A stretch of 33,016 nucleotides of DNA from Aquipuribacter hungaricus (GTDB lineage Bacteria; Actinomycetota; Actinomycetes; Actinomycetales; JBBAYJ01), in the NCBI RefSeq assembly GCF_037860755.1, contig NZ_JBBEOI010000018.1, positions 1 to 33,016 on the forward strand, in the 5' to 3' direction. Below, piece by piece: positions 7,624 through 25,439 of this stretch (its first letter is position 1; each line of letters opens with the position of its first letter). The position numbers and the translations under genes were made by a program. The notes beneath the pieces are model-generated. The model made no database searches. It was not told where the DNA came from and saw only the letters and a list, made by a program, of their open reading frames with translations.

Positions 7624-7945
7624 CGAAGCAGTCTCTCCTACCCCCGCGCGCGTGACCGGCTCAAGACCGGGTGCACCGAACGCAACTCACACCCGCTCGT
7701 CCGCCCCGCAGCGGCCAAGGCGGAGCCACCTGCGACTGAGCGATCGCGCTTCGGCGCAGCCGCCCCGGCGGCGGATCCCCCGTGGGACGGCTGCGCCTGG
7801 TGCTAGGCGTCCACGCCTAAGCCGTCGGCCGTCACCCTGTAGGCGGTCGGCTATCGGTCCGATCCGACGGGGCAACATTGGGACCGTGGACGCGCGCTCA
7901 GCTTGGGCTGGTGGTGGCGCCGGGACGGCGGCTGCGATCTGCGGC
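7624..7945. other. Gene-free interval with a repeat copy
   Basis: No convincing gene in 322 bases. It holds one two-module repeat copy in reverse orientation (7773-7857). Inside that copy is a 16-base palindrome, TAGGCGT-CC-ACGCCTA, at about 7804-7819. Confidence 0.6.
7773..7857 (-). repeat. Two-module intergenic repeat, copy 1 (reverse)
   Basis: Read on the minus strand, module 1 (7857-7829) is CCGATAGCCGACCGCC followed by TACAGGGTGACGGC, and module 2 (7790-7773) is CCGTCCCACGGGGGATCC. It lies beyond the 3' end of the 7946-8422 gene. Order and spacing match the copies at 10139, 11898 and 13144. Confidence 0.65.
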
Positions 7946-8997: not shown

Positions 8998-9017
8998 TGT
9001 AGCACTTGTGCAACACT
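8998..9017 (+). promoter_or_regulatory. Putative operator/promoter of the toxin-antitoxin pair
   Basis: TGTAGCAC-TT-GTGCAACA (8998-9015) is an imperfect inverted repeat overlapping a possible -10 (AACACT, 9012-9017), six bases before the antitoxin GTG. Antitoxins of the Phd/VapB class usually repress their own operon by binding such palindromes; binding here is inferred. Confidence 0.5.
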
Positions 9018-9023
9018 GGGCCT

Positions 9024-9275
9024 GTGACCACGATCGGACTGCGCGAGCTGCGCCAGCAGGCCTCCGAGCTGCTGCGACGCGTCGAGGGCGGTGAGCAGGT
9101 GCTCATCACTGTTGCCGGTCGACCGAGCGCCCGCCTCGTGCCGGTGAGCCCGCGAGCCTGGCGCTCCTGGACCGACGTCGCCGACCTCTTCGACGGGCCC
9201 GCCGATCTGCAGTGGGACACCGATCGGAACCGTCTCGATGACGACCTGCGCGATCCTTGGCACCCCACCCAGTGA
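9024..9275 (+). CDS. Phd/YefM-type antitoxin
   Basis: An 83-residue antitoxin. The N-terminal Phd fold is visible in MTTIGLRELRQQASELLRR and GEQVLITVAGRPSARLVP (about residues 25-42). A short linker and an acidic Asp/Trp-rich tail (about 50-83, LFDGPADLQWDTDRNRLDDD) should wrap and block the toxin. The GTG at 9024 gives the standard family start. The gene overlaps the downstream toxin in a GTGA arrangement, so translation is coupled. Likely autoregulated through the palindrome just upstream. Confidence 0.88.
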   Translation: MTTIGLRELRQQASELLRRVEGGEQVLITVAGRPSARLVPVSPRAWRSWTDVADLFDGPADLQWDTDRNRLDDDLRDPWHPTQ

Positions 9276-9652
9276 GAGCGCTGCTCGACACCTCCGTCGT
9301 CATCGCCGCCGACGTCCAGCCGCTGGAGGGCGAGCTGGCCGTCAGTGCCGTCACGTTGTCCGAGCTGCACTTCGGCGTCCTGGTCGCCACCGATCCTGCC
9401 GTGCGTGCCGAGCGGCTGCGCCGACTGTCGCGGTTGCAGCAGAGCTTCGACGCGCTGCCGGTCGATGAGGCGGTGGCCGCCAGCTACGGCCGTCTGGCCG
9501 CTGCGGTGGTTGCCGCAGGCCGTCAGCCCCGAGCGCGGACGATGGACCTGCTCATCGCAGCGACGGCTCACGCCCACGACGCACGGCTCTACACCCGCAA
9601 CGCTGCTGACCTCCGTGGCCTTGAGGTCCTTCTCGAGGTCGTCAGCGTCTGA
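9272..9652 (+). CDS. VapC-type PIN-domain ribonuclease toxin
   Basis: A 126-residue PIN-domain protein. Acidic residues expected to hold the catalytic metal are Asp6 (RALLDTSV), Glu31 (VTLSELHFGV), Asp92 (TMDLLIAATA) and Asp113 (TRNAADL). VapC toxins cleave RNA, often tRNA or rRNA, when freed from the antitoxin. The GTG at 9272 overlaps the antitoxin stop and gives the typical start; the longer opening at 9257 was rejected. It is the only clear toxin-antitoxin pair in the window and sits among the small cargo genes, where it could stabilise the region. Confidence 0.9.
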   Translation: MRALLDTSVVIAADVQPLEGELAVSAVTLSELHFGVLVATDPAVRAERLRRLSRLQQSFDALPVDEAVAASYGRLAAAVVAAGRQPRARTMDLLIAATAHAHDARLYTRNAADLRGLEVLLEVVSV

Positions 9653-9766
9653 ATTAGCGGCGCCTCTTGCGCCGGTAGCCGGCTGTGCTCTTGGCCAGTG
9701 GCCGATCGGCGACTGGGAGGCGCAGTGCTCGCGAGCCACGCCCCGTTTGAGCGTCGGAGCCGCCTA

Positions 9767-10117: not shown

Positions 10118-10138
10118 GGAATCTGTCGAACGGCCCCC

Positions 10139-10231
10139 GGTAGAGGACCGCCTGCCGGCGACGGGGCGGCGGTGAGCGGCGTCCCGCAGTGACCTCGTCC
10201 GGTCGTCCCGCAGGGGATCCCGCGTGGGACG
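10139..10231 (+). repeat. Two-module intergenic repeat, copy 2 (forward)
   Basis: Module 1 (10139-10164) begins GGTAGAGGACCGCC and ends CCGGCGACGG; module 2 (10204-10231) is CGTCCCGCAGGGGATCCC followed by GCGTGGGACG. The module 2 arms CGTCCC and GGGACG pair around a central GGATCC. It lies just past the 3' end of the 10266-10559 gene. Confidence 0.72.
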
Positions 10232-10265
10232 GCCAGGTGCCTACGCCACTGACGCCTCAGATGGC

Positions 10266-11794: not shown

Positions 11795-11897
11795 GGACTG
11801 ATCGTCCCGCTCTGGTGAGCAACAGGGGGCCAACTGCGCGAGGACGCCCCGATGGCCGATCGCCGGAGGCCAACTTGCAGCGCTCAGACGGCCGTTT

Positions 11898-11994
11898 CGA
11901 TAGACGACCGTCCACCGGCGACGGACAGAAGCTGGGGCGCCCTGCCCACGACCGAGCCTCGCCGTCACCCGGGGATCCTCAGCCGGGACTCGTC
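11898..11994 (+). repeat. Two-module intergenic repeat, copy 3 (forward)
   Basis: Module 1 (11898-11928) includes GACGACCGTCCACCGGCGAC; module 2 (11961-11994) includes CCCGGGGATCCTCAGCCGGG then ACTCGTC. It lies 50 bases beyond the stop of the PH-domain gene and upstream of the four-helix membrane protein. Confidence 0.72.
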
Positions 11995-12043
11995 AGGTGA
12001 CCCAGCCCCGTCCGTTGCCCCCAGCAACGATCCGGCGACCTAG

Positions 12044-13030: not shown

Positions 13031-13143
13031 TCTCCACGCGGCACGCCGACGCCATGGCCGGGGCAGGTCTGGTGGGCAAGGCGCAGCGGCCTCGGCGGAC
13101 GCGTCGAGTCTAGAGAGAGCCAGCCGGAGAGGGCTGTTGTTCA

Positions 13144-13252
13144 GGTAGCCGACCGTCTACCGGCGACGGACAGCGGCTGAGGAGCAGGTCGCGTGACACC
13201 GGCCCCGCCGTCCCGCAGGGGATCCCCAGCTGGCGATCCGTCAGCGGGACGG
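13144..13252 (+). repeat. Two-module intergenic repeat, copy 4 (forward, best preserved)
   Basis: Module 1 is GGTAGCCGACCGTCTACCGG then CGACGGACAG (13144-13173). Module 2 (13208-13252) starts CCGTCCCGCAGGGGATCCCC, continues AGCTGGCGATCC and ends GCGGGACGG. Outer arms CCGTCCCGC (13208-13216) and GCGGGACGG (13244-13252) pair perfectly over nine bases with a 27-base interior. It lies upstream of 12860-13030 and downstream of 13447-13938. Confidence 0.78.
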
Positions 13253-13343
13253 GGTGGCCACGTCCGCCGGCGGTTGTTTCGTGGCTCGCTCCGTCGCCGG
13301 GAGCCGGTCCGCTAATGGGACGGCCATCGTTTCCCGCGACGCT

Positions 13344-13397
13344 GCGGGCTGCGGGCTGCGGGCTGCGGGCTGCGGGCTGCGGGCCGCGGGCCGCGGG
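13344..13397. repeat. Seven-base tandem repeat
   Basis: Five GCGGGCT units are followed by two GCGGGCC units and a partial copy. It is non-coding as far as can be seen and lies between the repeat at 13144-13252 and the gene ending at 13447. The single-base change spreading to adjacent units suggests slippage. Confidence 0.9.
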
Positions 13398-13938: not shown

Positions 13939-14135
13939 GCCAGTGATGACGAGTGGCCGTGGTGGCCAGGTGACGACGGGAACACAAGACCATCCTGCTG
14001 CAGGGAACGTGTCGACGGGGGTGCGTTGAGGTGCGTTCGACCGACCGGCCTATGACCCTTCGAGCGCGTGCGCCAGCGCGGGCCTCGCTGCCGTGCTGGA
14101 GGACAGCAAGGGCCGTGCGGCAACGGATTTCAATT

Positions 14136-14227
14136 GGCGATCCCCTGGGGGATGGCCAGGCCCATCCGCCGGCAGCCCCACGGGCGGGGGCGCGGCTCAC
14201 CTGGTAGCCGGTCGTCTATCGGCTACC
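14136..14227 (-). repeat. Two-module intergenic repeat, copy 5 (reverse)
   Basis: Module 1 (14203-14227) is itself a hairpin: GGTAGCCG (14203-14210) pairs perfectly with CGGCTACC (14220-14227). Module 2 (14136-14157) is GGCGATCCCCTGGGGGATGG then CC, palindromic. It overlaps the end of the phosphatase gene: CTA at 14223-14225 is that gene's TAG stop. Confidence 0.75.
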
Positions 14228-15637: not shown

Positions 15638-15673
15638 CTCGCCGCAGCAGGGACCGAGGCAGCGACTCGGTGA

Positions 15674-15735
15674 GCCATCCCCTGCGGGACCGCTGAGCCG
15701 GGCCTCGAGGGCCGGCGCCGTCACCGGCGGTCGGC
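15674..15735 (-). repeat. Two-module intergenic repeat, copy 6 (reverse)
   Basis: On the minus strand module 1 is GCCGACCGCCGGTGACGGC (15735-15717) and module 2 is GCGGTCCCGCAGGGGATGGC (15693-15674). Spacing is shorter than in other copies. It lies between the convergent ends of the glyoxalase-fold and lipoprotein genes. Confidence 0.68.
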
Positions 15736-15808
15736 TTGCAGAAGGTCGGAGGAGGCTTCCCGGCCGGGGTGGGTCAATGAGGTAGCCGGCGTATCGCAAG
15801 ACGTTGGG

Positions 15809-16705
15809 TCACCCGGCCAGCACCAGGGCTGAGATGACCTGGACGACCCCGTCGCCGTAGCGTCCGTCGAGCTCAGACCGCAGGGCGCCGTCGTCGTAGG
15901 TGACCGTTAGCTGCACGGTGCCGGTCAGGACGTCGACGCCGGCGGACAGCATGCTGGCGACGCTCGTGGTCACCTCGTCCTGAATTCTTCTGAGCTCCGT
16001 CTCGGTGCGCTCGGCGGTGGTCACGCAGAGGGGGCCGTCCCACACCTCTCTCAGCTCCGCCTCGGCGGCCGCAGGGTCACCGGTGACCCTGATGTTGACG
16101 ACCGGCGGAAGGACTGTCGCCTCCGGGTCATCCGTCAACGCCCGGTCAAGCTCGTACGCGTCCCGGGGGTCTCGGTGCGTCACCCAACCGCCCGCGTAGT
16201 CCGAGCGTTGCTGGGCTGCCGTGAAGACAATGTCCTCTGCGGACCAGGGCATCGGTTCGCCCGGCCACCCGCCGGGTGGCTCCGGGCACGGCGAGGCGAA
16301 GTCCACGTCGGTCACGGACCCGGCATCGGTCCACTCGTCGGCGGGGACCGCGTCGGTGACCGTGAGGTCAGTGCCGTCGAACGTGCCAGTGACCTGGAAG
16401 TCGCCAAACCTCACCCCTGAGGCACTCTCGTAGTCGCCGTCATGGTCGGTCCAGTCCCACCCGATCAGCTCCGGCCCGCCGCACTGCGGCGGCAACGACT
16501 CTCCGACCCCGCCCGGACACAGCTCGGCCCCGTCCCCGCCGTCGATCACCATCACCGGGTACCGCGTGGTGACTTCGTCGCCCCACGCTGCCGGCCCCGT
16601 CTGTGGCGGCTGGCTAGCCGCCCCGGAGATCGCCTGAGTGGTTGGGTCCCCACAGCCGGCCACCATCAGCGGTGCAGCCACCACGCCCGTCACCAGCCGC
16701 CTCAT
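15809..16705 (-). CDS. Secreted lipoprotein, unknown function
   Basis: A 298-residue lipoprotein. The signal RRLVTGVVAAPLMVAGC ends in lipobox VAGC, so Cys18 should be lipidated and the protein held on the outer face of the membrane. The mature part is acidic with paired Cys residues (ELCPGGVG and PQCGGPE), a WDWTDHDGDYESASGVRFGD stretch typical of secreted beta-rich proteins, a FDGTDLTVTDAVPADEW motif, and a long helix (AERTETELRRIQDEVTTS) before a final VQLTVTYDDG strand. Similar actinobacterial lipoproteins exist without assigned function. The promoter was not identified. Confidence 0.8.
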   Translation of the reverse strand: MRRLVTGVVAAPLMVAGCGDPTTQAISGAASQPPQTGPAAWGDEVTTRYPVMVIDGGDGAELCPGGVGESLPPQCGGPELIGWDWTDHDGDYESASGVRFGDFQVTGTFDGTDLTVTDAVPADEWTDAGSVTDVDFASPCPEPPGGWPGEPMPWSAEDIVFTAAQQRSDYAGGWVTHRDPRDAYELDRALTDDPEATVLPPVVNIRVTGDPAAAEAELREVWDGPLCVTTAERTETELRRIQDEVTTSVASMLSAGVDVLTGTVQLTVTYDDGALRSELDGRYGDGVVQVISALVLAG

Positions 16706-17201: not shown

Positions 17202-17668
17202 GAGATCGATGGTGACATCCGGATGGACTACACCGTGTCGCAAAAGGCGTATCGCACCCGCCCGGCCGATAGAGCGCGCCCGAAGCAGGCGCGGTCCCCG
17301 GACGCAAGAACCCCGATGCGGGGCGCATGAATCTCAGCTGCCCCGCGAACCACCGACTCGTCTCAGTAAACGATGGACGAGTGGGACGTGACGCCTCACT
17401 GACGAAGGGGACTGGTGGTCGTCGTGCCCTTGGAGACTGGGCAGCCTTGAGCCGCCACGCAGCTTCCCGAGCGGCAGCCAGCAGGACCGCTGCACCGGGG
17501 CGCCTACACGACAGGGGCGTCGCTGCGGGAGCTCGGCATGAGGAGCGGCAGCAGCTTCCTGAGTGGCTCTTGGCTGCCGGCTTGGTCGCAACCGTCGACG
17601 GCGATGAGTCCCAGCATCAGCCCGAGTCTGCGATGGCGATGGAGACTCACTCGACTTCGGGGATTTCT
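17202..17668. other. Gene-free interval
   Basis: Between divergent genes. The plus-strand frame continuous with the S51 peptidase (from 17327) has low-complexity Ala/Arg composition and no start signal, so I see no gene in 467 bases. No repeat copy was recognised. Confidence 0.5.
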
Positions 17669-18331
17669 ATGAAGCTGCTCCTGACGTCTGGCGGCGTCAC
17701 GAACCTGAGCATCCGCGCGGCGCTGGTACGCCTCCTGGGCAAGCCGATCGCCGAGTGCCGCGCCCTCGCCGTCCCCACGGCACAGTGGGGCCACCCGATG
17801 TGTGGTCCGGCATCGGTGAGGCGCTTCGTCGCGGACGAGCCGGGTGGGCGATCCCTCGCCGGCCTGGGCTGGGCGTCCCTCGGTGTCCTCGAGCTCACGG
17901 CGTTGCCCACCATCGACGTCGACAGGTGGCTCCCGTGGGTGCAGGACGCCGACGTGCTCCTGGTCGACGGCGGGGACGCGACGTACCTGTGCCACTGGAT
18001 GCGCGAATCTGGGCTCGCGGATCTGCTGCCCTCGTTGACCGGCACGGTCTGGGTCGGGGTGAGTGCCGGGAGCATGGTGATGACGCCCCGGGTCGGGGCC
18101 CGCTTCGTCGAGTGGTCAGGCGCGGTGGACGACCGCACCCTGGGCCTCGTCGACTTCTCGATCTTCCCGCACCTGGACGCTTTCCCGACGAACACCCTCG
18201 CCGAGGCCCAGCGGTGGGCGCGCGACATCGGTCTCCCGGCCTACGCCATCGACGAGCAGACCGCCATCGCGGTCGCCGACGGCTGTGTCGAAGTCGTCTC
18301 CGAGGGAAGTTGGACGACGTTCGAGGCGTGA
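17669..18331 (+). CDS. Peptidase S51 family protein (peptidase E-like)
   Basis: A 220-residue protein of the class I glutamine-amidotransferase-like fold. The nucleophile motif is VGVSAGSMVMTPRVG, and IFPHLDAFPTN carries the probable catalytic His. VLLVDGGDATYLCHWMRESG matches the conserved Gly-Gly-(Asp/Asn) loop. S51 enzymes cleave Asp-Xaa dipeptides (peptidase E) or cyanophycin; the short length fits peptidase E. The ATG at 17669 begins KLLLTSGGVTN, the family start, with GGGGA five bases upstream. A lone metabolic gene in the accessory zone. Confidence 0.88.
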   Translation: MKLLLTSGGVTNLSIRAALVRLLGKPIAECRALAVPTAQWGHPMCGPASVRRFVADEPGGRSLAGLGWASLGVLELTALPTIDVDRWLPWVQDADVLLVDGGDATYLCHWMRESGLADLLPSLTGTVWVGVSAGSMVMTPRVGARFVEWSGAVDDRTLGLVDFSIFPHLDAFPTNTLAEAQRWARDIGLPAYAIDEQTAIAVADGCVEVVSEGSWTTFEA

Positions 18332-18417
18332 CCACGTGAGGCGTCGCGACGTGGCCGGCACCCCCGAGCTGCGGGAAGGCCACGAACTGGGCGATTAGGC
18401 CCCGACCCGGCGTCTCC

Positions 18418-18513
18418 GACGAAGCGACCGCTTACCGGCGACGTCCGCCGCTTCTGTCGACGGTTACCGCAAAGGGCGGGGCCGTCCCGCGGGAGATCGC
18501 CAGTTGGGGATCG
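18418..18513 (+). repeat. Two-module intergenic repeat, copy 7 (forward)
   Basis: Module 1 (18418-18443) ends GCGACCGCTTACCGGCGACG; module 2 (18480-18513) is GGCCGTCCCGCGGGAGATCG then CCAGTTGGGGATCGG. It lies between the convergent ends of the S51 peptidase and VanZ-like genes. Confidence 0.7.
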
Positions 18514-18559
18514 GTGACCGGTGCACCCGTGGTGGTGCTTTCCGCCGGATGCTTGGCGA

Positions 18560-19423
18560 TCAATCGCCTTCGGGTAGCGACGCCGTCCACACCAGAAGTT
18601 GCGAGCCCTGTACCGCGTACGTCCGCACCGGGTTCCCGCGCCCGTCGACGGTATCCGTGGTGCCGGGCGCGGCGATGCCGACCTCGAGCCCGCCGCCGCC
18701 CTCGTCCTGCACGGTCACCACGACTCCCGGTGCTGCGTCGGACAGGATCGTGCTCGAGCCGATCGCGGAGCCCCCCACGCACAGCGAGCCGTCGTCGACG
18801 GCGTAGACGCTGACCCCACCGGGCAGCTCGGTGAGCGCTCCGGCAGGCTGCTGGCCGCACGCATCGACCAGAGGCACGAACGGCGGGGTGGTCACCGTCG
18901 ACGACACGGCCCAGACCACCAGGCCTCCGGCCAGGAACCCTGCCACCAGCCGGTAGACCGGCAGCCGAGGCGGCCGCCACCCACGGTCGCGCGGGCGCCG
19001 GCTCAGGAGCAGGACCGTGCCGGTCGCGGCCAGGCCCAACAGGGCACCCACCGAGTTGTTGAGCAGGTCGTCCACATCGAAGGCGCGCCACGCCCATCCT
19101 GCGGCCAGCGAACCCAGCAGCTGGCCGGTCTCGATAAGAAGCGTGACCCCGACGCACGCCAGCACCATCGCCTCGTAGCGCCAGCGCACCACCAGCGGCA
19201 GCAGCAGCCCGAAGGGCACCGTCATCAGGACGTTGCGCCGCGACTCCCACCCACCGAGCAGGTCCGGCCGCGACAGTGACAGGTTGACTGCGACCCGCCC
19301 TTCAGCGCCGGGAACCGGCGACCCCGGAAGGGGAAGGAACGCCACACCGGCGAGCACGAGCAGGTACACGGCGAACGCCACCGTCGCCAGGCGCTGCACG
19401 AGAGGAGAGCGCAGGTCGACCAC
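18560..19423 (-). CDS. VanZ-like membrane protein
   Basis: A 287-residue protein. The N-terminal 150 residues form a VanZ-like domain with four transmembrane helices and the family signatures SRRNVLMTVPFGLLLPL, LIETGQLL and FDVDDLLNNSVGALLG. A fifth hydrophobic helix (about 157-175, AGFLAGGLVVWAVSS) precedes an external beta-rich domain of about 110 residues of unknown role with two Cys residues (DACGQQ and GSLCVGG). VanZ gives low-level teicoplanin resistance by an unclear route, but most family members are not resistance proteins. The GTG at 19423 lies six bases after CACGAT (19435-19430), again suggesting leaderless transcription. Confidence 0.85.
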   Translation of the reverse strand: MVDLRSPLVQRLATVAFAVYLLVLAGVAFLPLPGSPVPGAEGRVAVNLSLSRPDLLGGWESRRNVLMTVPFGLLLPLVVRWRYEAMVLACVGVTLLIETGQLLGSLAAGWAWRAFDVDDLLNNSVGALLGLAATGTVLLLSRRPRDRGWRPPRLPVYRLVAGFLAGGLVVWAVSSTVTTPPFVPLVDACGQQPAGALTELPGGVSVYAVDDGSLCVGGSAIGSSTILSDAAPGVVVTVQDEGGGGLEVGIAAPGTTDTVDGRGNPVRTYAVQGSQLLVWTASLPEGD

Positions 19424-19463: not shown

Positions 19464-19494
19464 CGTCCAGGTAGGCGATCCTCAGCTGGGATTG
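19464..19494 (+). repeat. Module 2 repeat copy (forward)
   Basis: GGCGATCCTCAGCTGGGATT matches module 2 at 11973-11991 (GGATCCTCAGCCGGGACT). It lies between two divergent gene starts, the only recognised copy in a promoter gap rather than at a gene end. No module 1 seen. Confidence 0.5.
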
Positions 19495-19534
19495 GCCCTG
19501 CCGGGGGCAGGTGGTCGCTGCCACACTCCGTGAT

Positions 19535-19954
<420 letters not shown>

Positions 19955-20034
19955 GATCGGCTACGGGCACGCCGTCACTGCTGGCCTGATCACCGCCGGT
20001 CGTAGTGAGCAGCGGCGGGGTGCGCAGCCGCCCC

Positions 20035-20259: not shown

Positions 20260-20276
20260 GCCCTTCGACGTGACCA

Positions 20277-20310
20277 CCTGGCGATCCCCAGATAGCGATC
20301 CTCGGGTGGC
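20277..20310 (-). repeat. Module 2 repeat copy (reverse)
   Basis: GGCGATCCCCAGATAGCGATC then CTCGG; read on the minus strand it resembles module 2 at 11965 (CACCCGAGGATCG). A possible degenerate module 1 follows at about 20312-20335. It lies just past the end of the 70-residue membrane gene. Confidence 0.5.
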
Positions 20311-20446
20311 GACGGGCTGCCGACGACGGCTGGCGCCGCAGGAGGACATGCGTGCGCCGGAGCGACAAGGTGCTGCCGCCGTCCCACATCAGTGTCAGTG
20401 GTGGGACGGCCGCGCGACAGCGCGTGTGGTCCTTGCCCTCCCTGGG

Positions 20447-21049
20447 TCAGCGGCTCCTGACGGAAGCTCCGGCACGGGCCTCCGCTCGGTGGACGGCCCG
20501 GTAGACCGTCGAGCGGCCGACGCTGAACAGCTCAGCGACCTCGAGGATGGAGTACTCACCGGTGGCCACCAGGACGGCCAGGTGCGCCTCCTGCTTGGCG
20601 GACAGCTTCGGTTGTCTCCCGTGCTGCCGGCCCTTCGCCCTCGCGACCTTCATGCCCTCGCGGGTGCGCATCCGGATCAGGTCTGCCTCGAACTCGGCGA
20701 CCATGGCCAGGACGTTGAACAGCAGCCGCCCGACCGGGTCGAGGGGGTCGTGCACCGAGCCGCCGAGGCTCAGCCGCACCTGGCGGACGGTGAGCTCCTC
20801 CGGGATGCTGCGGGCGTCGGGCAGGGAGCGGGCCAGGCGGTCCAGTTTCGTGACGACGAGGGTGTCGCCCTCGCGGCAGGCGGCCATGGCCTCCTTGAGG
20901 CCGGGCCGGTCGCGGTTGGTGCCGGTCAGGCCGTGGTCGACGTAGACGCGGCTTGCGGGAACGCCGAGGGCTTGGAGGCCGTCGCGCTGCGCGGTGAGGT
21001 CCTGGCCGTCGGTGGACACCCGTGCGTAGCCGATGAGTAGTGCGGTCAT
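20447..21049 (-). CDS. Small serine recombinase (resolvase/invertase family)
   Basis: A 200-residue site-specific recombinase. The catalytic domain starts MTALLIGYARVSTDGQ with nucleophile Ser12, followed by YVDHGLTGTNRDRPGL, the LVVTKLDRLARS motif with active-site arginine, and the E-helix region MVAEFEADLIRMRTREG. The C-terminus (about 160-190, YSILEVAELFSVGRSTVYRAV) is a helix-turn-helix. Length and order are those of Tn3 resolvase or Gin/Hin invertase, not a large serine integrase, and it appears intact. GAGGAG precedes the ATG by about seven bases. It may resolve a lost transposon or invert DNA between inverted sites; the neighbouring repeat array makes the latter attractive but unproven. 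Confidence 0.95.
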   Translation of the reverse strand: MTALLIGYARVSTDGQDLTAQRDGLQALGVPASRVYVDHGLTGTNRDRPGLKEAMAACREGDTLVVTKLDRLARSLPDARSIPEELTVRQVRLSLGGSVHDPLDPVGRLLFNVLAMVAEFEADLIRMRTREGMKVARAKGRQHGRQPKLSAKQEAHLAVLVATGEYSILEVAELFSVGRSTVYRAVHRAEARAGASVRSR

Positions 21050-21094
21050 GACGATGCTCCTCGCGTCGGCCGTCCCCGGGGCCCCATCGCGCCG

Positions 21095-21478
21095 GTGCGG
21101 CAGCGGCCCTGCCGCTACACCGAGACCGTCGAAGACACGTCGACCCTCAGCAAGACCACGGCTACGCGCTCGCTCAGAACGGCCCAACCTGCCCCCGGAC
21201 GGGATCCACAACTTGGCTGGCACCTGGCGCGCGACCTGTACGCGCGGTGCGTCCGCTGCGGCGGCATGGTGAGGCTGTGGGACGACCAGAGCGACGAATG
21301 CCCGTGCGGACGGCTCCACAAGGACGTGGACGCGGGTCGCTTCGGGTCGGATGACGGAGACGCGAGCCTCGCGGTGTTCCGCGTGACGACCGTGGCCGTC
21401 CGCCCTTGGTGGCGCCGGCTGAAGCGCGCCACGGGTCGCCTGTTCGAGGATCGAGGACCGCGAGGCTCGGGTAGCTAG
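21095..21478 (+). CDS. Zinc-ribbon hypothetical protein, start uncertain
   Basis: Up to 127 residues. A convincing zinc-ribbon-like core, ARCVRCGGMVRLWDDQSDE followed by CPCGRLHKD and DAGRFGSDDGD, has four Cys in CxxC plus CxC spacing. The C-terminus is basic (VRPWWRRLKRATGRLFE). The core begins near residue 48, but the preceding sequence has no good start or ribosome site and unremarkable composition. The gene may start at the GTG at 21095, use an atypical start, or have lost its true 5' end next to the recombinase. Role unknown. Confidence 0.5.
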   Translation: MRQRPCRYTETVEDTSTLSKTTATRSLRTAQPAPGRDPQLGWHLARDLYARCVRCGGMVRLWDDQSDECPCGRLHKDVDAGRFGSDDGDASLAVFRVTTVAVRPWWRRLKRATGRLFEDRGPRGSGS

Positions 21479-22932: not shown

Positions 22933-23076
22933 AGGACATCCTGAGCCGCGGCGACCGGCTCCGCCCTACTCAGGAGCCTGGATGGACGCGGCTTGTTCGG
23001 TTTGGTCCGCCAGACGGAGACCACGGGCCGACAGCCGACGCATCGCCCACGACGCCGTGACCGGCGTGTTCTGCGG

Positions 23077-23149
23077 TGACCCCGGCCAGATTCGAACTGG
23101 CGACACACGGTTTAGGAAACCGATGCTCTATCCCCTGAGCTACGGGGCC
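23077..23149 (-). tRNA. tRNA-Arg (anticodon CCU)
   Basis: A 73-base cloverleaf on the minus strand. The acceptor GGCCCCG pairs with CGGGGTC (one G-U). The D arm is GCTC...GAGC, the anticodon loop TTCCTAA gives CCT at positions 34-36, and the T arm GCCAG-TTCGAAT-CTGGC is canonical; the discriminator is A. CCA is not encoded in full. It reads AGG. Its 3' end points left, toward the accessory zone. No second copy of its 3' end was seen in the window. Confidence 0.96.
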
Positions 23150-23354: not shown

Positions 23355-25439
23355 GTGGTCAACTGCAGCTCCCGCCCCGTGTCCTCCGCCGTGGCGCTCG
23401 CCCTCGGCAGCCTCCTGCTGACCGGTGCGCCTGCCGCCTCCGCGGCGACGGCCGGGGCACCGACGGGCGCCGCCGTGGCGCAGCAGGCGGCGCAGCATGT
23501 CGCCCCGGTGCAGGGGCTCGTGCACGAGCAGGCAGCGCCGCTCACGGAGCCGGCGCCCGACGGCCCGCCGCTGTCGGCGGCCGCGGTGGTGGCGCGCGAC
23601 GGCATCGTGGACGTCGTCGTCCGCACGGCCCCCGACGCCGACCCTGAGGTCGTCGCGCGCGGCGTCGACGCGGGGGCGGACCTGGTCTTCCAGTCCGTTC
23701 TGTCGGGGTTCACCACCACGGTCGACCCGGCGGGGCTGGCCGACCTGCAGGCGGACCCGCGCGTGCTCGCCGTCGAGGTGGACCAGGTCGTCTGGACAGC
23801 GAGCACCCGTTCCCCCGTGACCTGGGGGCTGGACCGCACCGACCAGCGCACCCTGCCGTTGTCCGGGAGCTACACGCAGCGCTCGACCGGCGCCGGGGCC
23901 ACCATCTACGTCGTCGACAGCGGGGTCGACGCCGGCCACGCCGAGTTCGGCGGCCGCGTGCGGTCCGGCTTCACCGTGGTGACCGACGGCGCCGGCACGG
24001 ACGACTGCAACGGTCACGGCACGCACGTGGCGGGGACCGCAGCAGGCGCCGTCCACGGTGTCGCCAGCTCGGCGACGGTGGTGCCGGTCCGCGTGGCGGA
24101 CTGCCGCGGGAAGGGCACCGTCGGCGGGATCGTGGACGGGTTGGACTGGGTGCTGCAGGACCACCAGGCGGGGACCCCCGCGGTGGTCAACCTCAGCATC
24201 GGCGCGGGACCCAGCCCGATGCTCGACGACGCGGTCCGTGCCCTGCACGCGCGCGGCCTCAGCGTCGTCGTCGCCGCGGGCAACGCCGGGGCCGACGCCT
24301 GTCTCAGCTCGCCGGGCCGGGTCCCTGCTGCCGTCACCGTCGGGGCGACCGACGCGTCCGACCGGCGGCCGTCCTGGTCGGACCACGGCGCCTGCCTCGA
24401 CCTGTTCGCCCCCGGGGTCGAGATCCGGTCGGCCGCGCACGGCACCGTGACCGGGACCCGGGTGGACTCCGGCACGTCGATGGCGGCCCCCCACGCCGCA
24501 GGCGTCCTCGCGGTCATGCGGGCGGCCGAGCCCGGCCTGACCGCCACGGCGGCGGCGGAGCGTCTCGTCGCCTCCTCGTCCCCGGGCGTCGTCCTGGACA
24601 CGGCCGGGTCGCCGAACCGCCTGCTCTCGCAGTCCTCCGCGCCGCCCAGCGCCGAGTGCCCGGCGGGCGACGACCGCACCGGCGCCGTCAGCCTGCCCCG
24701 CCCCGGTGTCGTCGTCGTCCAGCGGACCATGTCGCCCACCCGCTACGACCTGTTCACCGTGGACAGCAGCGGCGCCGCCACCCCGCTGGCGGTCGACGGC
24801 CTGCCCCTGACCACCCAGGTGGTCGCGACCTGGGAGAACGGCGCCGGCTGCTCCGGCCTGCCGGGCTCGCGCGCCGCCTGGGCCGTCACCCCCGGCGGGC
24901 GCGTGTTCGGCGAGGGCTCCGTGACCGGGCCGCCCGCCGCCTCCTACGGCGACGCCTCGACGCTCCCGCTGGCCCGCCCCGTCGTGGGGATGAGCCCGAC
25001 GGCGTCCGGTCGCGGCTACTGGCTCGTCGCCTCCGACGGCGGGATCTTCACCTACGGCGACGCGGTCTTCCACGGCTCGACCGGGGCGCTGCGCCTCAAC
25101 CAGCCGATCGTCGGCATGGCCACCACGCCCACGGGCGGCGGGTACTGGCTCGTCGCCTCCGACGGCGGGGTGTTCGCCTTCGGCGACGCGGTGTTCCACG
25201 GCTCGACCGGCGCCCTGCGGCTGCAGCGCCCCGTCACCGGCATGCTCGCCACCCCGACCGGCCAGGGCTACTGGATGGTCGCCTCCGACGGCGGGGTGTT
25301 CACCTTCGGCGACGCGCTGTTCCACGGCTCGACCGGCGCGCAGACGCTCAGCTCCCCGATCGCCGGGATGCTGCCCCGTACCGGCGGCTACCTGCTCGTG
25401 GGCGGCGACGGCAGGACGTACGGGTTCGGCGGCCGGTAG
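23355..25439 (+). CDS. Secreted subtilisin-family (S8) serine protease with C-terminal repeats
   Basis: A 694-residue exported protease. A signal peptide (about 1-31, ending APAASAAT) and an I9-type propeptide (about 75-148) precede the S8 domain: Asp188 in YVVDSGVDAGH, His221 in NGHGTHVAGTAAG, an oxyanion Asn in AAGNAGAD, and Ser375 in SGTSMAAPHAAG. A linker leads to about four copies of a 36-37-residue repeat (about 540-694) containing YWLVASDGG, FGDAVFHGSTGA and a PIVGM-like strand, probably a beta-propeller or adhesive module. The GTG at 23355 is six bases after CATCAT, so transcription may be leaderless. Substrate unknown; likely released or cell-wall associated. Confidence 0.93.
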   Translation: MVNCSSRPVSSAVALALGSLLLTGAPAASAATAGAPTGAAVAQQAAQHVAPVQGLVHEQAAPLTEPAPDGPPLSAAAVVARDGIVDVVVRTAPDADPEVVARGVDAGADLVFQSVLSGFTTTVDPAGLADLQADPRVLAVEVDQVVWTASTRSPVTWGLDRTDQRTLPLSGSYTQRSTGAGATIYVVDSGVDAGHAEFGGRVRSGFTVVTDGAGTDDCNGHGTHVAGTAAGAVHGVASSATVVPVRVADCRGKGTVGGIVDGLDWVLQDHQAGTPAVVNLSIGAGPSPMLDDAVRALHARGLSVVVAAGNAGADACLSSPGRVPAAVTVGATDASDRRPSWSDHGACLDLFAPGVEIRSAAHGTVTGTRVDSGTSMAAPHAAGVLAVMRAAEPGLTATAAAERLVASSSPGVVLDTAGSPNRLLSQSSAPPSAECPAGDDRTGAVSLPRPGVVVVQRTMSPTRYDLFTVDSSGAATPLAVDGLPLTTQVVATWENGAGCSGLPGSRAAWAVTPGGRVFGEGSVTGPPAASYGDASTLPLARPVVGMSPTASGRGYWLVASDGGIFTYGDAVFHGSTGALRLNQPIVGMATTPTGGGYWLVASDGGVFAFGDAVFHGSTGALRLQRPVTGMLATPTGQGYWMVASDGGVFTFGDALFHGSTGAQTLSSPIAGMLPRTGGYLLVGGDGRTYGFGGR

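Follow-up and report, generated by a model that had tools for sequence, protein, structure and literature searches.

A probable integron-like cassette array in an actinobacterium, its small gene units likely shuffled by the small serine resolvase family at res-type sites

Introduction

To our knowledge, the known cassette arrays, integrons and dif modules, rely on tyrosine recombinases. The sites of pdif, the dif modules of Acinetobacter plasmids, are 28-bp XerC/XerD dif sites with a 6-bp spacer. Among Tn3-family resolvases, the res site, with its crossover site I, adjoins the resolvase gene, and classical resolvases integrate poorly, their preferred reaction being excision of the DNA between two direct repeats of the site. 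The XerC/XerD modules of Acinetobacter plasmids comprise one or two genes between opposed sites, undergo site-specific shuffling and in many cases encode toxin-antitoxin systems; some of them carry a serine recombinase gene as plain cargo (PMC13141974).

In this report, we analyzed a 33,016-nucleotide stretch of DNA from Aquipuribacter hungaricus (the window), which constitutes contig C18 of an actinobacterial genome assembled into 547 contigs (4.3 Mb). From comparisons of sequence, we propose with a probability of roughly 0.7 that an island in the window is an integron-like array, in which small cassettes are separated by res-type sites and have been shuffled by the small-serine-resolvase family of the recombinase encoded there.

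Results

The island and its recombinase

The island, at about 7.7-21.5 kb, is AT-richer than the remainder of the window, with the GC content falling from ~0.76 to 0.65-0.73. Its genes are short and mutually unrelated (Table 1); they encode VapBC, a VOC-like protein, a phosphatase, a peptidase of family S51, VanZ, small membrane proteins and lipoproteins. Two of these cargoes are also present, re-sited, in the same-genus genome G001: the VapBC pair (locus L053, 14830-15483; 85%) and the lipoprotein-like gene (L053; 72%), which lies there beside VapBC and a recombinase gene. Outside the island, a tRNA-Arg (CCT) gene is found at 23075-23149, ~1.6 kb past the last array site, and a long ORF at 24963-25370 contains three 126-bp direct repeats that represent a repeated protein segment. 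Short tandem repeats (GCTGCGG and GACCGCT units) adjoin array sites at 13341-13396 and 19926-19953.

As a sequence-only reading of this DNA had proposed, the island encodes an intact recombinase of the resolvase/invertase type, its reading frame unbroken. Its domains are those of a resolvase, PF00239 (2.7e-38) for catalysis and, at the C terminus, the helix-turn-helix PF02796; its residues R-V-S-T and K-L-D-R-L-x-R-S align with those of the DNA invertase 4m6f, the closest of its nearest solved structures, which also include gamma-delta resolvase. Copies in Pseudokineococcus are 92-93% identical to it (93% for that at locus L078). The genome also encodes other serine recombinases at 40-44% identity, one of them on the array-bearing contig C25, and seven tyrosine recombinases. 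On a protein tree, the window recombinase groups with those of P. marinus, Pseudokineococcus sp. 2-287 and Quadrisphaera, while that of G001 falls in a different clade, next to Nocardioides, and thus was probably acquired separately.

The recombinase units of other genomes carry other partner genes, named here by eye: a DUF433/DUF5615-like pair in P. marinus and Quadrisphaera, and an Abi-like protein in Nocardioides, for which a Pfam search returned no match (L079 9634-9864, L081 9207-9810 and L084 9045-9851).

The repeat family

Copies of a repeat of ~126 nt occur in both orientations and, within the window, only in the island. Their architecture comprises module 1 (GNTAGCCGACCGNCTACCGGCGACG), ~45 variable bases, and module 2 (GCCGTCCCGCAGGGGATC..). 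A profile built from seven copies listed in the sequence-only reading recovered those copies at E = 1e-13 to 1e-25 and found new ones on other contigs; a search of Markov-shuffled sequence with the same profile gave one weak match only (E 0.57). The two orientations assigned in that reading stand for the forward copies at 10139, 11898, 13144 and 18418 and the reverse copies at 7773, 14136 and 15674; the reverse copy at 20277 proved to be only partial: its GGATC cores lie on the minus strand, and it matches the full profile weakly (E about 0.1-0.2). The earlier description of the copies as degenerate was borne out: many in the window are divergent, with a mean column identity of 52%, and both modules are retained in only some. 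Two opposed modules are combined in many elements, as at 13138..13325, where matches fall on both strands (13138-13253 and 13207-13325), and the order of orientations along the array is not strictly alternating. A strict cassette order of gene, module 2 and module 1 was considered and rejected; several genes are reversed, e.g., a gene precedes module 1 at the start of C25. A search of the island against Rfam gave no match.

To hold the window out, a site matrix was trained exclusively on sequence from other contigs and genomes; it placed 15 sites in the island versus 2 in the other 18.5 kb of the window; in shuffled versions of the island, the mean was 0.8 and the maximum 3. The sites beyond those already listed include 9705, 17373, 19478, 19956, 21204 and ~21450. 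Because they continue past the recombinase gene to 21451, this gene is enclosed by the array as one of its members and is not at its edge, as had been supposed.

Contigs C25, C19, C158, C10, C79, C2 and C53 of the same genome carry further copies; G001 and G002, both of the same genus, and P. marinus have fewer. G002 has one good element (L223, on its contig C59, 2936-3039) without a close recombinase; elements can thus exist without one. We abandoned a loose module 1 pattern that had been run over eight genomes: in distant genomes it turned up as often as its control.

Table 1. Features located in the island (window coordinates)
Feature	Position	Strand	Basis or detail
Repeat element (module 1 + module 2)	7744..7865	-	Profile and model matches
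Cargo: VapB-like antitoxin and PIN-domain toxin	9006..9652	+	Toxin PF01850; antitoxin from position and sequence only
Extra crossover-type site, core 9705, after VapBC pair	9692..9720		Held-out matrix, 16.2 bits
Repeat element	10133..10241	+	Module 2 = 10204-10231, CGTCCCGCAGGGG-AT-CCCGCGTGGGACG, full 28-bp site-I-like palindrome
Repeat element	11889..12007	+	Profile and model matches
Two-sided repeat element	13138..13325	both	Module 1 (+) 13144, module 2 13209, module 1 (-) 13292-13314
Repeat element	14111..14226	-	Profile and model matches
Repeat element, divergent, after VOC-like gene	15659..15740	-	Profile and model matches
Cargo: lipoprotein-like protein, unknown family	15809..16705	-	Without Pfam match
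Cargo: peptidase S51 (peptidase E) family	17327..18331	+	PF03575, 4.3e-18
Repeat element between peptidase S51 gene and VanZ gene	18410..18530	+	Profile and model matches
Cargo: VanZ-like protein	18563..19423	-	PF04892, 2e-17
Extra crossover-type site, core 19478	19464..19496		Held-out matrix, 18.3 bits
Extra crossover-type site, core 19956	19942..19974		Held-out matrix, 16.6 bits
Degenerate repeat element, 3' side of recombinase	20266..20388		Weak profile match 20299-20388; matrix cores 20285, 20298
Palindrome GCCGTCCCAC..GTGGGACGGC directly after recombinase stop	20378..20412		Conserved recombinase-side pair of half-sites (arms of module 2)
Intact gene for small serine recombinase of resolvase/invertase type (200 aa)	20447..21049	-	PF00239 + HTH_7; cassette within array
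Two crossover-type sites past recombinase, cores 21204 and 21451	21190..21466		Held-out matrix, 13.0 and 11.5 bits

The modules resemble resolvase crossover sites

Ordinary members of the recombinase's family, which are plasmid-borne or, in one case, part of a Tn3 transposon (L103), keep 28-bp imperfect palindromes upstream of their genes; examples are TGTCCGCTAGGGGATCCCTAACCGGACA in Clavibacter, GTCCCGTTGGGGGATCCCCAACCGGGC in Actinoplanes and GTCTCCTAAGGGGAACCCCCACCGGGAC in Pseudonocardia. As search space we took the 300 nt preceding the genes of 55 non-redundant ordinary relatives, and ran on it matrices made from arrays and junctions only. The best match to the module 1 matrix lay within -152..-124 (about -137) at 31 of the 55 loci, where 5.9 would be expected (p 1e-16), and that to the junction matrix did so at 21 (again 5.9 expected; p 9e-8); over 58 loci, the upstream-site match gave a Fisher p of 2e-11, although counts across relatives share descent, such that these p-values overstate the number of independent cases. 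Since matrices derived from the arrays pick out a site in a fixed position upstream of ordinary relatives, both modules look like crossover-type sites of the recombinase's family. At the level of sequence, a site of ~28 bp with inverted half-sites, the form of crossover site I, is seen both at 10204-10231 and in the fixed-position match. Judged by symmetry, the center of the site would be AT, AA or AC.

The array-borne recombinases have a different arrangement. Their subclade keeps the upstream crossover site in 1 of 15 cases, and the half-site is found downstream instead: GTCCCGCA, from module 2, occurs within 90 nt past the stop codon in 15 of 24 close relatives versus 0.6% of background windows (p 7e-28, overstated likewise by shared descent). 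All of the recombinases that group with that of the window have this 3' arrangement, and it is clustered on the protein tree, requiring 3-4 changes versus 13.7 when shuffled. A full-length site matrix was also applied to the palindrome past the gene, but its signal was weak (Fisher 7e-5, driven by few loci), and the half-site test was used instead; with that matrix, counts of sites around recombinases of other genera were mostly not significant.

These observations strengthen the link between recombinase and repeats that had earlier been drawn by inference: both modules resemble the family's site ~137 nt upstream, and a half-site follows the gene in most close relatives. They also bear on a pair of inverted 9-mers that had been noted on either side of the gene. 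The copy at 20403-20411 is an arm of a real local palindrome (20378-20410), but conservation in relatives does not extend to the copy at 21068-21076, and the window as a whole contains 4 and 3 copies of the two 9-mers; the inverted flank is thus probably due to chance. A consistent association of recombinase homologs with a Tn3-like transposon, named in the sequence-only reading as an observation that would speak against the link, is not what we found. Tn3 transposase (PF01526) occurred within 4 kb of only 1 of 23 close relatives (L103), and no large ORF was near the other 22.

Blocks end at a common core and change neighbors

Near-identical blocks in close relatives end within a few bases of a core, GGATC, GGTTC or CGGTCG. 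This core, matched as a regular expression, is in the last 8 shared bases at 12 of 18 block ends, versus 8% of all 8-mers, with a p of about 1e-9 that is optimistic because the motif was picked after some ends had been seen; P. marinus blocks fetched later and separately gave the same core. Some of the ends compared belong to other repeats and miss the core. What all the block ends have in common is TC preceded by a variable base, which differs from the AT, AA or AC that symmetry suggests for the central dinucleotide.

The same blocks occupy different neighborhoods in different genomes. Positions 1-1166 of L078 (2-287) are 99.7% identical to P. marinus L219 up to CAGTTGAGGATC (GAGGATC), after which the two are wholly different: 2-287 has a 763-bp unit, and P. 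marinus has CCCAGTGACACAAGATC. In 2-287, CCCAGTGACACAAGATC comes instead after another block (L078 10723-11733, 99.6% identical to L222) that ends in TCGTCGATC (GATC). The 763-bp unit is present twice in tandem in L078, the copies being 100% identical and bounded by GAGGATCG. The recombinase units of P. marinus (L079, L080) and L078 diverge exactly after GGCGGTCG, the reverse complement of the module 1 core. In Nocardioides, a 1751-bp unit that is 99.9% identical in two genomes ends in GATCGG and GGGGTTC. G001 has VapBC, the lipoprotein gene and a recombinase gene as neighbors, and their order and relative orientation differ from those in the window. The shuffling suggested in the sequence-only reading is therefore consistent with these junctions, and cassette shuffling can be regarded as well supported at the level of sequence comparison. 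The identical tandem in 2-287, together with blocks that are 98-99.9% identical, end at the core and have different neighbors, points to recent events in relatives.

In the window's own assembly, contigs C25 and C158 share exactly 63 terminal nt and then part inside module 1 (L044 1-63, L045 8788-8850). This fork may reflect two live junctions or a duplicated flank; a search for a third contig holding the common part found none. The shared 63 nt end a protein (..VVVDATDLDAPVIASHR) whose TAG stop lies inside module 1.

Two other kinds of repetition were seen. A 1.7-kb block is duplicated within this genome at 95% identity (L044 201-1913 and L048 12914-14625), with one end at GAGGATCG; by eye, its genes have the appearance of a sigma factor and a partner. 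Further, a dispersed repeat of 185-316 bp, up to 99% identical between contigs and with inverted ends GGTCTCACCGTCGCCCGG and CGACGGTGAGACCCCC, looks like a small non-autonomous transposon (L045 1949-2264; L048 4379-4694; L225 5886-6200; L233 9430-9614 and 3276-3456).

Discussion

What can be read from the alignments is a set of repeats, block ends at the core, changed neighbors and modules that appear to match the family's own sites. In the explanation we prefer, the island would consist of small gene cassettes, mostly of one gene or one toxin-antitoxin pair apiece, separated by elements with one or two copies of a res site I (~28 bp, its two GTCCCG-like half-sites flanking a dinucleotide at the center). 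The enzyme, a small serine resolvase of this family and most likely the 20447-21049 protein, would bind the half-sites, cut at the center and rejoin the ends. Between two directly oriented sites, this reaction would release a cassette in circular form, and its reversal would let the circle enter another site, such that cassettes could spread, duplicate and change neighbors. The recombinase gene would itself travel as a cassette, its sites having shifted from their usual upstream place to the gene's 3' side. We infer that the 20447-21049 protein is the acting enzyme, that circles are the intermediate and that the array is active now. The weakest link is the identity of the enzyme, given the G002 element without a close recombinase and the paralogs in the genome. 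A more ambitious version of this explanation envisions a self-sufficient, integron-independent system, descended from a plasmid resolvase, in which a resolvase cassette with an attC-like 3' res site both excises and integrates res-ended cassettes; we advance it tentatively, at somewhat under even odds.

The nearest competitor grants that the resolvase family built the array, but holds that this occurred long ago and that the array, now mostly degenerate, is ordinarily inherited; it thus departs from our preferred explanation only in whether the window's array still recombines. The divergence of the window copies, the retention of both modules in only some of them and the enzyme-less element of G002 would fit, yet the perfectly duplicated 763-bp unit and the near-identical blocks that meet new neighbors at the core argue for recent events in relatives, and the fork between C25 and C158 may mark two live junctions, if not a repeated flank. 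We judge such a fossil array to be unlikely, while taking it more seriously than the notion that another enzyme, for instance a paralogous serine recombinase or a host Xer pair, moves the array and that the recombinase at 20447-21049 is only cargo. That notion, which we deem considerably less probable, draws on the fact that the recombinase occupies a cassette like the rest, on the serine paralogs (one of them on array contig C25), on the seven tyrosine recombinases, on the G002 element and on the serine recombinase cargo of Acinetobacter dif modules (PMC13141974). Set against it are the resemblance of the junction sequence to the site upstream of ordinary members of the recombinase's own family, the half-site beside the recombinase gene in many genera and the absence of an integron integrase above cut-off.

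Inversion is possible, since sites lie in both orientations, and the sequence-only reading had raised inversion between opposed repeats. The changes we found are gains, losses and new neighbors, not clean inversions, and none of the latter was observed. The sole pointer to inversion is the relative orientation of VapBC and the recombinase gene, which differs between the window and G001 and which separate insertions explain equally well. That the recombinase serves as a switch, flipping segments between opposed repeats to alter gene expression, is accordingly improbable: no invertible promoter or isoform was seen, and many genes differ between genomes. Least plausible of all, and in our estimation hardly credible, is that the elements are ordinary intergenic repeats or terminators whose shared ends are coincidental. 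Module 2 is indeed palindromic, GC-rich and intergenic, but coincidence sits poorly with the concentration of block ends at the core and the fixed-position match to resolvase sites, and the single-strand folds of most copies are not unusual relative to shuffles.

If the preferred explanation, an array built on small-serine-resolvase sites, is correct, the storage and shuffling of genes in cassette arrays would have evolved more than once. It would also point to a means of gene capture in actinobacteria to which searches based on integrases are blind, and would make integration, alongside excision, by a resolvase open to testing. Among the open-access papers searched, we found no description of such a resolvase-site cassette array.

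The array shares much with described systems. Like integrons (IntI/attC), it is composed of small, site-joined units that are gained, lost, duplicated and reordered, with unrelated cargo that includes toxin-antitoxin pairs, and the order of its small cassettes changes between genomes. Unlike in integrons, units face both ways and the expected enzyme is a serine resolvase. In three genomes of the genus, the best match to the integron integrase model (TIGR02249) scored 74.6 bits, with none near the 265-bit cut-off; the attC boxes RYYYAAC and GTTRRRY are absent from the repeat consensus; and z-scores for single-strand folding are ordinary for most copies. On these grounds we rejected an integron with attC sites. 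The pdif arrays are comparable in that their modules hold one or two genes between opposed sites, undergo site-specific shuffling and in many cases carry toxin-antitoxin cargo, in some a serine recombinase; here, by contrast, the consensus of the sites forms a GC-rich palindrome that resembles the res sites of serine resolvases rather than dif sites, and the arrays are of chromosomal type in an actinobacterium. With the resolvase-res systems of Tn3 and plasmids, the locus has in common the recombinase family, with its catalytic and C-terminal helix-turn-helix domains, and a 28-bp crossover site with half-sites; it differs in having its sites on the 3' side of the gene and also scattered among unrelated genes, with each genome holding many copies. 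The closest solved structure and the sites that face both ways are reminiscent of DNA inversion systems (Gin/Hin, Bacteroides Mpi), whereas the junction changes seen here are gains and reassortments of cassettes. The sites and the likely enzyme are of the serine resolvase family, and tests that define integrons and Tn3 transposons went against the array. We accordingly class it as a variant cassette array, one that works like integrons and the Acinetobacter dif modules, and not as a member of any of these named systems.
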